A stretch of 64,000 nt of DNA, from positions 248,001-312,000 of the forward strand of contig VUYT01000012.1 of assembly GCA_008802785.1 (NCBI GenBank). The letters are read 5' to 3'. Source of the stretch: Symmetrospora coprosmae (Eukaryota > Basidiomycota > Cystobasidiomycetes > Symmetrosporaceae). The position numbers and the translations under genes were made by a program. The notes under the pieces are model-generated. The model ran no database searches. It saw only the letters and a list, made by a program, of their open reading frames with translations, and was not told the origin of the DNA. Positions 4,276 to 12,403 of the stretch are shown here, piece by piece. Within the stretch, counting starts at the first letter, position 1. The number at the start of each line of letters is the position of its first letter.

Positions 4276-6031
4276 ATGTCAGGTAGGTCGGAGCGGTACT
4301 GCATGTCACTCTCTGCAGCACTGACGCTGTCTCTTCTCTAGCCCGCCTCTCCCTCGCCGACCAGCTCGCGGCCATCCGAGACCCAGCTGCGCCCGTCGAG
4401 GAATACGACCCCGAGTCTGCACCCTACGACTTCAGCTCTGGGCGGTCGAGCAGCAAAGCGCAGAAGGAGCATCTGGACGCTGGGCGTGCCGACTATCTCG
4501 ATGTGGGCGAGAGCAGCCTGCGCAAGAGTATAGCGCGCAAGCATGCGCCCGAGCTCGGCGGCAGATACGCCGGCGTGAAGAGCAGCAGAGACGAGCTCTT
4601 CGGTGGCAAGAAGGCTGCTCTCGACGGCAGCATTGATGGAAGCGATGAGGATCTGGACGGTGATGACAATGACGAGGATGAGGATGATCTAGAAGAGGAG
4701 GAGGAGCTCGACGAAGACGAAGAGCAAGCCGGACTAGAAGGAGAAGAGTCTGGCAGCGAGGGCGAAGACCCCACAGAGGACGATGAGGAGGCTTCAGGAG
4801 GAGAGGATGACGACGAGGAAGACATCCCTGTTGCTAAAGCAACCTTGAAGCGGTCCGGAAAGTCCAGCATGAATGATGACTCGCGTGCCATGATCCAGGC
4901 GCTCAAGAAGGCATCCTCTGCGGACGTCGAGAAGGGCGGAGAGGTCCGGAGACAGCTCGTGAGTCACGCCATACGTCTAGTTTGGTACAAGCTCAAGCTA
5001 ACAACGCTGTCCGCAGTCCTTCTGGGACACATTGCTCGAAGCGCGAATCCGTCTGCAGAAATGCGTGACAAGCGTCAACGTCCTTCCAGGCGTGAGTCCT
5101 CTCTGCCTGTGTCAAGGTGCCCGCGCTTTACCACTGACAAGCGTACACGTCACAGCCATCGAGTATACCAAACTACACCGATGCCAGCTCGTCCGATTTT
5201 CACAAGACGGTCGCCTCGCTAGAAGAGCTGAGCGAACTGCTCTTCAGCGTTCGCCGGACGCTTTACGAGACGAATGACAAGCTCACTCTTTCTGCGTCTG
5301 CATCTGCATCTCGCAAGCGCAAGCGTGGGAGCGCCAGCTATCTCGACTCGGCCCTTGACGAGCTCGAGCAGCTATCGAGCGTGGTGTCGCCGTACGAGCG
5401 AACCGTCATCTCGCGGTGGAGCGACAAGGTCTCCGCAGCAGGCGGATCGGCCTCATCACAGCAGCAAAACAAGTTCAAGGCAATCGGGACGCAGAACACG
5501 CTCTCGCAGATCGATGGGATCGTCGGGCAGGACATGGAGCGGCTGGTTGAGCGGACACGGGTCCGGCGCAGCGGCGGTGGACGGGCGGCACACGTCAAGG
5601 TTGTCGGACGGGACCGGGCGCTCGAGCCTGTCGAGGGAGAGAAGGACGTGTCGGAGGAAGTGTTTGACGACACGGACTTCTACCAGGCGCTCCTGCGCGA
5701 GGTCGTCGATGCCTCGGCAGGCGCGGGCCCGGCCTCTGGACTGAATGGCGACCGGTACGCGCAGTTCAACAACATCTCGAAGAAGAAGGCAGCAGGTGTC
5801 GATGTCAAGGCCTCGAAAGGCAGAAAGCTCCGCTACCACGTCCACGAAAAGTTGCAAAACTTCATGGCGCCCATCCCGATGCTCACTTGGGAGAAGGAGC
5901 AGACGGACGAGCTGTTCCGGGGGTTACTTGGAAGCTCGACTCGAGATGGTGCTCAGGCTGGTGCGGAGGGCATGCAAGACATGGACGGAGATGGTGCAGC
6001 CGCGTCTGCGGGGCAGCTCAGGATCTTCTAG
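4276..6031 (+). CDS. BFR2: BFR2/AATF (traube-type) ribosome biogenesis protein
   Basis: Proposed exons 4276-4282, 4342-4958, 5017-5091 and 5156-6031 give 524 codons with all phases closing. The first exon is only ATGTCAG. The product starts MSARLSLADQLAAIRDP, has a long acidic D/E block (residues about 115-185), then a conserved segment with SFWDTLLEARIRLQK, and a C-terminal region with KLRYHVHEKLQNFM and FRGLLGS. That is the TRAUB domain order of Bfr2/AATF, a nucleolar small-subunit processome factor for early 40S assembly. The basic KRKRG patch around residue 274 could be a nuclear signal. The cystathionine beta-lyase/mevalonate kinase gene follows about 380 bases downstream on the same strand. 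Confidence 0.9.
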
Positions 6032-6411: not shown

Positions 6412-9400
6412 ATGACCCCATCCGCAACAATGTCCAACGAAACAGACAGCTACCCTCCTTCACCCAGGGATGTCGACGCGAGCAGCACCGTCGCCAGCTC
6501 GCTCTACCTCGACCACTCGTCAGCGAGCCGCCGGCCTCGGCGCAAGCAGGATCTGAGGCGGTTCGCGACGCAGTGCGCCGTCGTGGATGACCCAGACTCG
6601 GACCACCACGACCAGCACGGCAGCAGCTCGGTGCCCATCTACCAGACTGCTACATTCAAGGGTGCGTGTGTGCGCACTTCGTTGCAGGCGGTGCTGGCTG
6701 GACTGGAGCACGGAGTCACAGCTGTAACTCCGACTGACCTGCGTCATATGCCCCTGCTTGACGCCGCAACTCCTCCTGCAGGTCTTCCCGGTCAGATCTA
6801 CGACTACTCTCGCTCTGGCAATCCTACGCGGACGTTTCTGCGTGAGTCGCTTCTCCCCGCTGGACGCTGGACAACCCCGAGCTGCCATCTCGTGACTAAC
6901 GCTCTTTCCCAATGCGCCCCGTGCACCCCTACGCTCGCAGAACACCACATTGCAAAGATCAGCAATGCAAAGCACGCCTTTGTCGTCAGCTCTGGCATGG
7001 CCGCCCTCGATGTCATCTTCCGGTCGCTCAAGCCAGGAGACGAGATCATCACCGGTGAGGGCGCTCGTCCGCGGCACAAACACCGACTCGAGGCAGGACC
7101 CTAACCCGCTTGATCCACGCAGGCAACGATCTGTACGGCGGCTCGAACCGTCTCCTGACCTTCTTGAAGACGTCCGGAGGGTTCACTGTACACCACCTTG
7201 ACACGACCAAGCCCGAGGTCCTCCTTCCCTACCTGACCGCGCCCAACTCCAAGATCCGCTGGGTCCTGCTCGAGTCGCCAACGAACCCGCTGATCCAGAT
7301 TGCCGACATCGAGTACATTTCGTCGCTCGTGCACAAGCATATTCCTTCTGCTGTCGTCATTGTCGACAACACGATGATGTCGCCATTCCTGCAGCGACCG
7401 CTCGAGCTCGGCGCAGACATTGTCTATGACAGTGCGACCAAATACCTCTCCGGGCACCACGATCTCATGGCGGGCGCCATGTACTGCAACCGGGACGATC
7501 TCGCCAAGCAGATGGCCTTCACGATCAATAGCATCGGCAACGGCCTGTCGCCGTTCGACTCGTTCCTCCTCCTGCGCGGTATCAAGACCATGGCGATCCG
7601 CATGGAGAAGCAGCAATCGACAGCATGCCTTGTTGCGGCTTATCTGGATAATCTCGGCTTCAAATGCAATTTCCCCGCACTGGCAGGCCATCCGGGCAAG
7701 GAGATACATGACAGGATTGCCAAGGGTCCCGGAGCGGTCCTCAGCTTCGAGACGGGAGATACCGGTCTCTCGGAGCGCGTGGTCGGAGCTACCCGCCTGT
7801 GGGGTATCTCAGTCTCGTTTGGAGCGGTCAACAGTCTGATTAGCATGCCTTGCCTCATGTCGTGAGTTGCGAGGTGTGACTTGCAGGGGTGATTATAGTC
7901 GGCGCTGACGTTTTATCTTGTCCGTGCTAGACATGCCTCCATCGACCCAAAGGTCCGCAAAGAGCGCAACTTGCCAGAACATCTCATCCGCCTCTGTGTC
8001 GGTATCGAGGACCCAGATGATTTGCTCGACGATCTGGAATCGGCTCTCCTTCAAGCCGGCGCGATACGGATCGTCGATGACCCCGAGACGCCCGGCGAGC
8101 AGAAGCTGGAGCGAGTGCCTGTAGCGCATGACGATGAGGAGGAGGAGCTTGTCGCCGCGAGTGCAGGCCTCAACATCCAGCAGAGCGGTGCGGCAGCGGA
8201 CGGCATTCCGGAATTTATTACTTCTGCTCCGGGCAAGGTCATCCTCTTCGGCGAGCATGCGGTCGTGCACGGCGTTACGGCCATTGCAGGCGCGCTCGAC
8301 CTGCGCTGCTACTGCCACGTCGAGGCGCGGTCGGATGACAAGGTCTCGCTAGTCCTGCCGGACGTAGGTCTCGAGCGGACGTGGAATCTGGCCGACCTGC
8401 CGTTCGATAGCATCGCGTCTGAGCGCACCGAGGAGCAGGATGATGTCGATGCAGACACTCTGCCAAACTCGCACGCGTCACCTGACCCCAAGCTCATGGA
8501 CATCATCGCTGGCAGCGCCAATCTCGCCAAGAGCGGCGAGAACATGTCGGCAAAGGTCGCCCTGTCCCCTCAAGCCTTCCTTTATCTGTACATGCGGCTT
8601 GCGAAGCCGGGCAAGCCGTGAGTGCTGGCTTCGTCGAGCGAAAGTCAAACTATGCTGACACTACACGTGCTGCCCCGCTACAGTCTCGCTCGGACGTTCA
8701 CAGTCCGCTCGGCGTTGCCGATCAGCGCAGGTCTCGGCTCGTCCGCCGCCTTTTCCGTCTGCCTTTCGTCCGCCCTTCTCTACCTCAACGGTCATCTCGC
8801 TCTCCCGTCGCCTCCCTCCTCTTCTTCGACTTCGACAATCTCGACCGACGCCGCCTATCTAGTCAACAGCTGGGCCTTTGTCGGCGAGAAGATCCTGCAC
8901 GGCAACCCGTCCGGCGTTGACAACTCCGTCTCATCGCTCGGCAGCGCGCTCGCATTCCAGAAATCGCGCTTCCCGGGCGAAGGCCCCTCGATGCACTCCC
9001 TCACCCACTTTAGGAGCATCCGCTTCCTGCTGACGGACACGAAAATCCCCAGGGATACGAAGACGCTAGTCGCAAATGTTGGCAAGCTCAAGGCCGAGCA
9101 GCCGGAGCTTGTTAATCGGCATCTGCAAGAGATCCAGGAGATCGCAGATGCGGCAGTCAGTGTGCTGAATGGCGAGGTGAAGGGCCAGACGCGCGCCCAA
9201 CAGATTGCAAAGCTTGAGGTGGGTCGCTCGGCCTCGCCTACCGGTCGAAGGCGTCGAAGCTGAATTAATCGTCTGTACGCTTGCAAACAGAGCCTGGTCG
9301 ACAGGAACCACGCTATTCTCAAAGAGCTTGGTGTCGGCCATGCTGCTCTGGAAGCCATCAAGCAGAAGGCATCGCAAGCGCCGTACGGGCTGCATACCAA

Positions 9401-9701
9401 GCTCACGGGAGCAGGAGGCGGTGGATGCGCCGTGACAATTGTGCCGGACGACTTCTCCGAGGCGACGCTGCAGCAGCTCAAGAGCGATCTGAGCGCGGAC
9501 GGCTTTGCGTGCTACGAGACTGCGGTCGGCGGCGGCGGTTTCGGCGTCTTGCCACTTTCGAGAGCGGCACCGCAGCAGCGCGTGAGCGCGGAGGGTGGAG
9601 CCGAGGAGGAGAACATCCCTGTTCGAAGCCAGTTCGAAGGCTCGAGCACGAAGGACCTCCACAGGTGGGCTGAGAGTGTCGGGCAGTGGCGGTACGCTTG
9701 A
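6412..9701 (+). CDS. Cystathionine beta-lyase / mevalonate kinase fusion protein
   Basis: Exons 6412-6661, 6782-6841, 6941-7054, 7123-7861, 7931-8617, 8684-9218 and 9291-9701 give 931 codons, with every phase closing. Residues about 80-435 are a Cys/Met-metabolism PLP enzyme: YDYSRSGNPTRTFL, VSSGMAALDVIF, and SATKYLSGHHDLMAG with the Schiff-base lysine near 248. The C-terminal HASIDPKVRKERNLPEHLIR and CVGIED fit cystathionine beta-lyase (cystathionine to homocysteine, pyruvate and ammonia). An acidic linker (about 445-484) leads straight into a complete GHMP kinase: SAPGKVILFGEHAVVHG, LPISAGLGSSAAF and TGAGGGGCAV, which is mevalonate kinase (ERG12). Exon 5 crosses the junction without a stop. 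ATG at 6430 is an alternative start. I do not recall such a fusion, and transcript proof is needed. STR3/ERG12 are the nearest single-gene names. Confidence 0.9.
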
Positions 9702-9930
9702 ATGGGCCGCGTGTGTGTGTAGATGTCTGAGGACTATCCCAGGAGGTGCACATGACTGTTGTCTTTCGTAGCAATGCGGCTCTGGCCTTTCTGTCTCTCT
9801 CTCTGCTTGGATGGCTTTGCTGTTTCATGTTGGTCGCCCTGCCCCGGTCGCGAGTCGCACAGGAACACGGGACGCACTCACCGGCGCGTACCTACGTCTT
9901 GCCTCCCCGACAACCCTCAACGACAGCAGC

Positions 9931-10504
9931 ATGGTCAAGCGCAAAGCATCAGCAGCCACGCCGGCAACACCAGCCGTATCCTCCCAGAGTGCAGGCGCAG
10001 CCCGAGCCACAGCGGCAGCAGGACAGTCGGTCCCACAGGCGGCTCCGCGGTCAGGCAGCAGCAGCAGCAGCGCGTCCGCTCCGCCTACTCATTACTACCA
10101 GTCTGGGAAGGATGAATATCGCGTGCCGAAGGCATGGAATGATCCTCTGGGATACCTTCGGAGCGTGTGGGATCTCTATGAGGCCACTTTTGCCATTTCA
10201 ATGCTCGAGACGGTGAGTGGCGCCTGCTTGACTGCCCCTCGACGTGTGCTACACCGACCGCTATCTGACTTCATTCATGATGATCGACAGTGGGAGAGCA
10301 TACTGCTTCGTGAGCGTCGGTCTTCCTTCGTGCTGACTCTGCCGCCCGCTGACAGATACCCACGCCCTCCTTTCACTTCGCCTAGACGGCATCCTGCTCA
10401 TTATTACCTACTTCCTGTACTGGGCAACGACAAACTACCTTCCAGATCACTTGCGCATCATTGCGAGCAGAGCGAGGTACTATTTCTCTGGCGTGGACGA
10501 GTAA
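9931..10504 (+). CDS. Serine palmitoyltransferase small-subunit-like membrane protein
   Basis: Exons 9931-10212, 10291-10309 (19 nt) and 10356-10504 give 149 residues. The N-terminal 65 residues are low-complexity (A, S, T, P). The conserved part reads LRSVWDLYEATFAISMLE then TWESILL, a hydrophobic segment (LDGILLIITYFLYW), and PDHLRIIASRARYYF. The motif MLE-x-WE followed by one membrane helix is the hallmark of SPTSSA/Tsc3-like small subunits, which stimulate serine palmitoyltransferase in the ER at the first step of sphingolipid synthesis. An alternative donor at 10479 (gtactat) would replace the last nine residues with a longer tail. It lies 229 bases downstream of the fusion gene on the same strand. 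Confidence 0.75.
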
Positions 10505-12403
10505 CGCTAGCATTGCCTGATCTTGCAGTGTGAGCATGCCATCCGCCCCCTGTCTACGATATCAAGCGCAAGGAGAAAAAGCTAACGTCCGATGGCTTTC
10601 GGCGAACAGTATCCCTTGTGATGTTGTGCTGAGAGCTTTTCCGGTCCTGATCTTCTGCAACATTGGCAGACGCGCGAAGCTAGAGCGATGCCCTTCTTTC
10701 GCAACGAGATGCTGTGGCACCAATCTGAAATTATCGCACATTAACCAGATAGAAGATGGCTTGCCGGCGGGCACAAACCCTTCTCGTCCACTCCTACTGC
10801 TTCTACAATCGAAGGACGCCATCGCTGCAAGTTTTCACAGAATGATATACGATGTTCCATGGAGCATGGTTTTGGTTCTGTAGACGCACAATCCTGACCG
10901 CTAATGAGGCAGACTGGGCACGCTCTGTGAGAAGGCAAGACTGGATACAATCTCAACTGTACAGGGCGGACTCCGCGCATCATCGCTTCACCGGGGTTTC
11001 CCGCCAACCCGGAGTCCGCGCATGCATGTCACAGTGATGCTGGGTTTCGGTCTTGTCTTGATGTTGCCACCTCTCAGAGGGATGCATCTCGCTCGACTCG
11101 CAGAGTGAACAGCCCCAGAAGTCCTGCTGATGCTTCTTTTCCCAGTGGATCTTGGCCATCTTATCCCCTGTATTCCAGCCTCTGATCCAATTTTTGCAGT
11201 AGAGACACCTGCAAAAGCGCGATGCCATAGCCAAGGGGATTCGTTCAGCATTCGGCTGTAGCGGCGGTTCCTCCGAGAATAAGCGCACACGGAACCCCGC
11301 TCACCTCAGTTCTCCCAGTACCGTAAGCCTACTGACTCGAATGTGCGTGGCGCGGTGAAACGGCATGGGAACAGGCACGCCGACTCTGCGAGAAGGACTT
11401 GAGGTGCGAGACGGTAAATTTGCAGAGGCTGCTTGTAACCCTAGACCGCCTGTCGAGCGCTGTACGTAGGGGTCCTGGCTGAGTTGCGTTCCGCGTCCTA
11501 ACGGTGATGGTCGAAGCTTGTTTGCAGCGTCCTGATCTGCCTCCAACTTGCGGACCGCTTCCAATGATCACATTCAGCTTGAGTCATCTTCGCGGTGAAG
11601 CGCGCATGGGCTGAAGAGGACCGTGCAGCCCGTGTCTTCGCGCTGACGGGTGCTGAGTGATCAAGGATACTGCTGCGCAATTGGAGTGTTGCGTCAAGGT
11701 TGGTCGAGCTATGCCTTGACGAAAGGGAAGTGGAAGATGTGGGGGTCATGGCGACTAAAGGTGTCCCAGCATGTGCTAAGACTGGGGAATGCAGAGAGCG
11801 CGGAAGAGTATTGCGGCGGTTGGTGGAATGGAGTGGAACGAAGCAGAGAGACCGTTGACTTGGAACCCCTTCTAAATAGTCTGCAGGGGTAGCGCTCGCA
11901 GCAGACCTTTTCCCACACTATCCTGTCCGAATTCTGGTGTAGAAGCGTTCAACAGACACAGCCTCGACACGGACGTCGGCTTGTCCGACATCAAGTCTGG
12001 TCCGACAGCGATCAGATGACTCTTGCCTTGACGTTCGACGACACCATCGTCGCGTGACCCATATCGGGAAATGCGTCAGGTAATAGAGTGATCCGCGCAT
12101 CATGTGTGCCAGAGAGCCTGAACAGGTGGCGTTACAGCATAGGGGAGGGCGTGGAGCTGCATTGCATCGTGGGCAGGGAAAAGAGGTACATCAAGGTAGA
12201 ATTGGCAACGCCCGTGATGCTCTCGGTAGAGAGCGCCAGAAGGACGTTAGACGAAGCTCAGAGGGAACGATGTAGGGATGCTTGCATAACGTCGTGAGGG
12301 AGCGTGACCACACAGCGACAACGACGATGATGACGAGAGTGTCCGTGTGGGTACGATGACTGCTTGAGACAGTCTAGACCAAGCAGATGCGGGGGAGGGC
12401 GCT
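10505..12403. other. Long gene-poor region
   Basis: About 1.9 kb between the SPT small-subunit gene and the GPI-anchored PEBP-like gene, which converge on it. Apart from the small cysteine/histidine-rich frame listed separately, open frames are short, lack domains and show no clean splice chain. It looks less GC-rich than its surroundings by eye. It could contain a decayed gene or a non-coding transcript, but nothing positive supports either. Confidence 0.4.
10980..11228 (-). CDS. Possible small Cys/His-rich (zinc-binding-like) protein
   Basis: From the ATG at 11228 an 82-codon frame encodes two spaced Cys/His sets: CLYC followed 16 residues later by HWEKKH, then CSLC followed by further histidines (SEMHPSERWQH). 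The spacing resembles two degenerate C2H2 or BED-type zinc-binding units, but no named family was recognised. The frame is open further upstream without another ATG. It lies alone in a gene-poor region on the minus strand. It may be a real orphan, a terminal exon, or a remnant of a larger gene. Confidence 0.35.
   Translation of the reverse strand: MASRFCRCLYCKNWIRGWNTGDKMAKIHWEKKHQQDFWGCSLCESSEMHPSERWQHQDKTETQHHCDMHARTPGWRETPVKR

Follow-up and report, generated by a model that had tools for sequence, protein, structure and literature searches.

A protein in which cystathionine beta-lyase is fused to mevalonate kinase has been known in basidiomycetes since 2012. The accessible text of the Ganoderma genome paper of that year (PMC3342255) describes a 'metC-MVK' fusion in 12 basidiomycetes, with Laccaria bicolor as the exception, and reports its absence from the other species examined. 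According to the same text, the fusion is the only mevalonate kinase homologue and the only best lyase match in each genome, dates to the ancestor of Basidiomycota, averages about 886 aa in length, and has, in 7 of those 12 species, a kinase region lengthened by a 16-residue insertion, a feature that is hence not universal. In the available part of an independent study (PMC3468542, 2012), the STR3 orthologues of the basidiomycetes examined, Postia placenta excepted, possess approximately 450 extra mevalonate kinase-like residues, a stand-alone mevalonate kinase was not found in basidiomycetes, and the two genes are apparently not clustered in ascomycetes. Further records, as far as the accessible texts go, include a fusion of 918 aa in Lignosus (PMC4129116) and a transcript-derived fused unigene in Pleurocybella mycelium (PMC3720577), while the accessible passages of PMC8058980, PMC7396576, and PMC4393869 mention mevalonate kinase without the fusion. 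The papers describing the fusion leave its function, in the parts available, for future study, and a search of the open-licence literature found no functional study after the first descriptions.

The locus considered here lies in a stretch of 64,000 nucleotides from Symmetrospora coprosmae, referred to as the window, and comprises the following features, numbered from the first letter of the window:

6412–9701, plus strand: whole fusion gene, cystathionine beta-lyase, linker, and mevalonate kinase, 931 aa (spliced translation, family matches)
6412–6661, plus strand: exon 1, start ATG at 6412 (spliced translation)
6601–8048, plus strand: cystathionine beta-lyase domain, residues 64–427, introns included (PF01053, 395 bits; TIGR01329)
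6782–6841, plus strand: exon 2 (spliced translation, intron 1 comparison)
6941–7054, plus strand: exon 3 (spliced translation)
7123–7861, plus strand: exon 4, with the PLP lysine K248 codon at 7440–7442 (translation, alignment to 1ibj)
7931–8617, plus strand: exon 5, lyase end, linker, and kinase start in one open frame, with the K490 codon at 8235–8237
8076–8216, plus strand: acidic, poorly conserved linker, residues 437–483 (conservation profile, composition)
8226–9437, plus strand: mevalonate kinase domain, residues 487–844, introns included (TIGR00549, 205.3 bits; PF00288, PF08544)
8684–9218, plus strand: exon 6, GLGSSAA motif, with the E685 codon at 8886–8888 and the D696 codon at 8919–8921
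9291–9701, plus strand: exon 7, TGAGGGG motif and C-terminus, stop at 9699–9701 (spliced translation)

Spliced translation joins all seven exons in phase, as the first-pass annotation of this DNA had stated, into 2796 bases encoding 931 residues with one terminal stop; the stop-free protein has a computed mass of 99.9 kDa, and all introns are of the GT..AG type and 66–120 bases long. Methionines stand at residues 1 and 7, the second in-frame ATG, at 6430, being a possible alternative start. When the splice junctions are compared with the best 120 of 943 homologues, the 14-residue stretches at junctions 2/3, 3/4, 4/5, 5/6, and 6/7 align gap-free in 120, 120, 119, 84, and 120 proteins, respectively, with low identity around junctions 5/6 (0.30) and 6/7 (0.39). 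Junction 1/2 aligns gap-free in 0 of the 120; the gene is one residue longer there than 114 of them, equal in length to 5, and eight residues longer than 1. Four in-frame open choices exist for intron 1, of which the adopted one scores best against four homologues; the three remaining options score lower in the same comparison and were rejected. Upstream of the gene, a plus-strand neighbour at 5138–6031, perhaps beginning near 4287, scores 92.5 bits against TRAUB and 37.5 bits against AATF-Che1 and is probably, judging from these matches, a ribosome biogenesis gene of the Bfr2/AATF type. Downstream, a possible plus-strand gene at 9931–10504 would encode a small protein whose N-terminus is rich in serine and alanine, and no Pfam match was found for the 9772–10530 frame.

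The joint between the two enzymes lies within exon 5, which reads without a stop from NLPEHLIRLCVGIED, the motif at the lyase C-terminus that starts at residue 401, across the acidic linker to SAPGKVILFGEHAVVHG (residues 486–502). The claim of a lyase-kinase fusion in one gene, with exon 5 open throughout, is thus borne out by the in-phase 931-residue frame, together with the passing of both family cut-offs given below. It is hardly credible that two adjacent genes have been misread as one, the lyase being transcribed from its own gene up to some point before about 8100 and the kinase from another whose transcript begins within exon 5. Such a reading could appeal to the poor conservation of the linker, which varies in both length and sequence across the best 120 of 943 homologues, the distance from lyase motif to kinase motif ranging over 64–109 residues (median 74) and being 80 in this gene. 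However, exon 5 contains no stop, and no Met occurs between residues 387 and 577 in the spliced frame of this gene, so that 7931–8220, the interval proposed for checking a separate kinase start, offers no in-frame ATG for a separate full kinase. The same joint protein is, moreover, predicted in all 120 of the best 120 homologues, and the fused Pleurocybella unigene recorded in the available text of PMC3720577 also argues against two genes. A Met within the linker is absent in 69 and present in 51 of these 120 homologues, and separate kinase starts may therefore occur elsewhere in the family.

Shorter products of the fusion gene could also be envisaged, as retention of intron 4 leads to a stop after residue 388 and retention of intron 5 to a stop after residue 617. 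Seven database models (P0243, P0246, P0247, P0249, P0256, P0263, and P0282) end in short unrelated tails soon past the kinase motif EHAVVHGV; they look as though translation had run on into an intron whose position they share and which this gene lacks, and are likely gene-calling errors or retained-intron forms. A lyase-only product made through retention of intron 5, by which the lyase:kinase ratio could be tuned, is very unlikely. It would be consistent with the position of the stop past the whole lyase domain and with the several database models that break off within the kinase N-terminus at what resembles an intron, but such models may result from faulty gene calling, and they do not end where intron 5 lies in this gene.

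The two halves of the full-length protein can each be assigned to a characterized family. Pfam places Cys_Met_Meta_PP at residues 64–427, GHMP_kinases_N at 621–655, and GHMP_kinases_C at 788–851. In NCBIfam, the N-terminal half matches eukaryotic cystathionine beta-lyase (TIGR01329, 515.9 bits against a cut-off of 487.5) and the C-terminal half mevalonate kinase (TIGR00549, 205.3 bits against 163.05), so that both lie above curated equivalog cut-offs; EC 4.4.1.13 for the lyase half and EC 2.7.1.36 for the kinase half are the activities predicted from these family matches. The best solved-structure matches by sequence are the Arabidopsis cystathionine beta-lyase 1ibj and the rat mevalonate kinase 1kvk. 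K248 is the PLP lysine and falls opposite residue 278 of 1ibj; K490, E685, and D696 align to residues 13, 193, and 204 of 1kvk, all four being catalytic positions in those structures. GLGSSAA and TGAGGGG are both present in the kinase half. Thirteen active-site and motif residues, namely these four and nine others chosen by hand, are identical in 120 of 120 proteins among the best 120 of 943 homologues, which agrees with the earlier impression that both enzymes look catalytically complete.

Compared with the stand-alone fungal Str3/MetG-type cystathionine beta-lyase (TIGR01329), the lyase half likewise scores above the cut-off and has the PLP lysine in place; such lyases stand alone in the ascomycete and Mucoromycota rows used, whereas here the linker and mevalonate kinase come after the lyase. 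The kinase half similarly resembles stand-alone Erg12/MVK (TIGR00549) in exceeding the cut-off and in retaining the Lys, Glu, and Asp aligned to residues 13, 193, and 204 of the rat protein, but it is preceded by a lyase and a linker. Yeast Str3 carries a C-terminal PTS1 signal, and peroxisomal retargeting, in which the fusion would mask such a signal, was considered and dropped because a PTS1-like C-terminal tripeptide was found in 0 of 103 lyase-half matches lacking the first kinase motif (fragments and shortened models included) and in 0 of 120 listed fusions.

The distribution of the fusion was surveyed by a whole-protein search, in which 943 of 8000 scored candidates reached E <= 0.001. 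The best 120 of these are 819–994 aa long and 50–63% identical, and each of the 120 carries both Pfam domains. Rows with an organism name among them are basidiomycetes throughout, an assignment made from general taxonomy except for taxa that were looked up, namely Meredithblackwellia (Pucciniomycotina), Bartheletia (Agaricomycotina), and Exobasidium (Ustilaginomycotina). The Tremellomycete Vanrija, likewise looked up, comes from the lyase-half search and has a shorter model that covers lyase sequence and reaches the first kinase motif. The named rows are mostly labelled 'cystathionine beta-lyase' or hypothetical protein, and the kinase is therefore easily missed. A search of E. coli genomes found nothing, which carries no weight for the distribution.

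Searches with each half separately extend this survey, the named rows, except Vanrija, again being assigned to basidiomycetes from general taxonomy. Among the best 120 of 7773 kinase-half matches, drawn from candidates of about 256–814 aa, all six named basidiomycete rows carry a lyase domain. Seventeen short kinase matches without an organism name were picked by hand from this list; the first residues of 7 belong to the C-terminal tail of the lyase and those of 1 to linker-like sequence, while lyase sequence was not found in 9. Among the best 120 of 7998 lyase-half matches, 10 named basidiomycete rows occur, of which 8 reach the first kinase motif; of the remaining two, one shows kinase sequence solely from further downstream and the other ends inside the lyase. 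The same search contains a 251-aa JGI metagenome protein (P0252) that is 99% identical over 57% of the lyase query, an identity pointing to a very close relative of Symmetrospora coprosmae sequenced from the environment. Postia placenta is fused in current data (P0077), contrary to the exception named in the available text of PMC3468542. The same domain order, which the first-pass annotation had suggested seeking in other basidiomycetes, is thus widespread in the listed homologues; the novelty implied by its remark that it knew of no described fusion does not hold, in view of these 120 proteins and of the accessible texts of the two 2012 papers (PMC3342255, PMC3468542). The wide basidiomycete spread and the 2012 descriptions make the gene an ordinary member of a known family.

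The genome of the organism itself, searched as 20.05 Mb in 77 contigs that may be incomplete, contains five places with kinase similarity, of which only the fusion gene passes the mevalonate kinase cut-off (TIGR00549). No second mevalonate kinase above that cut-off was found in this possibly incomplete assembly, which speaks against the second complete ERG12 whose presence elsewhere had been raised as an objection to the fusion. NCBIfam identifies two of the remaining GHMP places as homoserine kinase and diphosphomevalonate decarboxylase; a place on contig 20, without an NCBIfam match, looks galactokinase-like. On contig 5, 393300–393518 matches the mevalonate kinase model weakly (19.4 bits, below the cut-off) and is possibly phosphomevalonate kinase. 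Other Cys/Met enzymes include an O-acetylhomoserine sulfhydrylase (contig 27) and a cystathionine gamma-synthase-like gene (contig 3, 35–37 kb), in addition to which contig 16 carries a weaker relative and contig 75 a weak match. The TIGR01329 cut-off is reached by no single exon but by the spliced protein, and the largest exon of the fusion gene (332.8 bits, against 73.9 for the next gene) makes it the only best lyase match. The gene therefore shares with the metC-MVK fusion, as described in the available texts of PMC3342255 and PMC3468542, its domain order, its phylum, and its position as the only kinase above the cut-off in the genome, and is similar in length (931 aa against the average of about 886 aa in PMC3342255). 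Nothing of substance was found to differ; the N-terminus is longer than in most homologues, and the extra residue at exon 1/2 distinguishes it from 114 of the 120 listed.

The history of the two halves was examined in trees of hand-chosen rows, which include no non-fungal outgroup to fix the root. The kinase-half tree comprises 40 rows (23 fused, 10 Mucoromycota and allies, and 7 Ascomycota), and the lyase-half tree 39 (24 fused, including the shortened Vanrija model, 6 Mucoromycota, and 9 Ascomycota). In both, a single branch separates the fused proteins from all other rows, its support being 100/98 for the kinase and 99/98 for the lyase, and this gene groups with the other basidiomycete fusions. 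Vanrija and Exobasidium form two long branches in the lyase tree and rusts are separate from other Pucciniomycotina in the kinase tree, leaving the deep branching order unsettled. Across the best 120 of 943 homologues (7140 pairs), between-species distances of the two halves correlate at r = 0.91, as would be expected from shared descent alone, with the kinase half more divergent on average (0.42 against 0.23). A single fusion event before the sampled basidiomycetes diverged, followed by vertical inheritance, is probable from these trees. Taken as a whole, the protein is very probably bifunctional, its two active sites working independently and joined by a variable acidic linker; it was probably fused once in a basidiomycete ancestor and inherited vertically.

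In such an enzyme, a presumably single mRNA in Symmetrospora coprosmae would be translated into one chain of approximately 100 kDa that bears both active sites, each separate from the other. The PLP-dependent lyase half would convert cystathionine into homocysteine, pyruvate, and ammonia, and the GHMP kinase half would phosphorylate mevalonate. The two reactions have no common substrate or product, and channelling is therefore not expected; the fusion would instead fix a 1:1 ratio and shared expression, from which a benefit of co-expression may arise. Lyases of this family are tetramers and mevalonate kinases are dimers, and the assembly of the fusion is therefore probably governed by the lyase half.

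The fusion might, as the first-pass annotation proposed, link the two pathways functionally. In a stronger form, the lyase half, or the supply of sulfur or methyl groups, would regulate how active the kinase half is or how it assembles, and methionine supply would in this way govern sterol synthesis; this is regarded as unlikely. The long retention of the fusion across the phylum and the correlated distances of the halves (r = 0.91, though shared descent alone gives that) are compatible with such coupling, as is the dependence of C-24 sterol methylation on S-adenosylmethionine made from homocysteine. On the other hand, no metabolite is common to both halves, the linker, variable in sequence and in length (64–109 residues between motifs), lends no support, and the accessible literature on the fusion contains no report of coupling.

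The fusion serves as a phylum-level marker, and terpenoid engineering with a native basidiomycete kinase would mean handling a 100 kDa two-enzyme protein. If the coupling were true, the fused enzyme would be a phylum-wide regulatory link between methionine supply and sterol synthesis.
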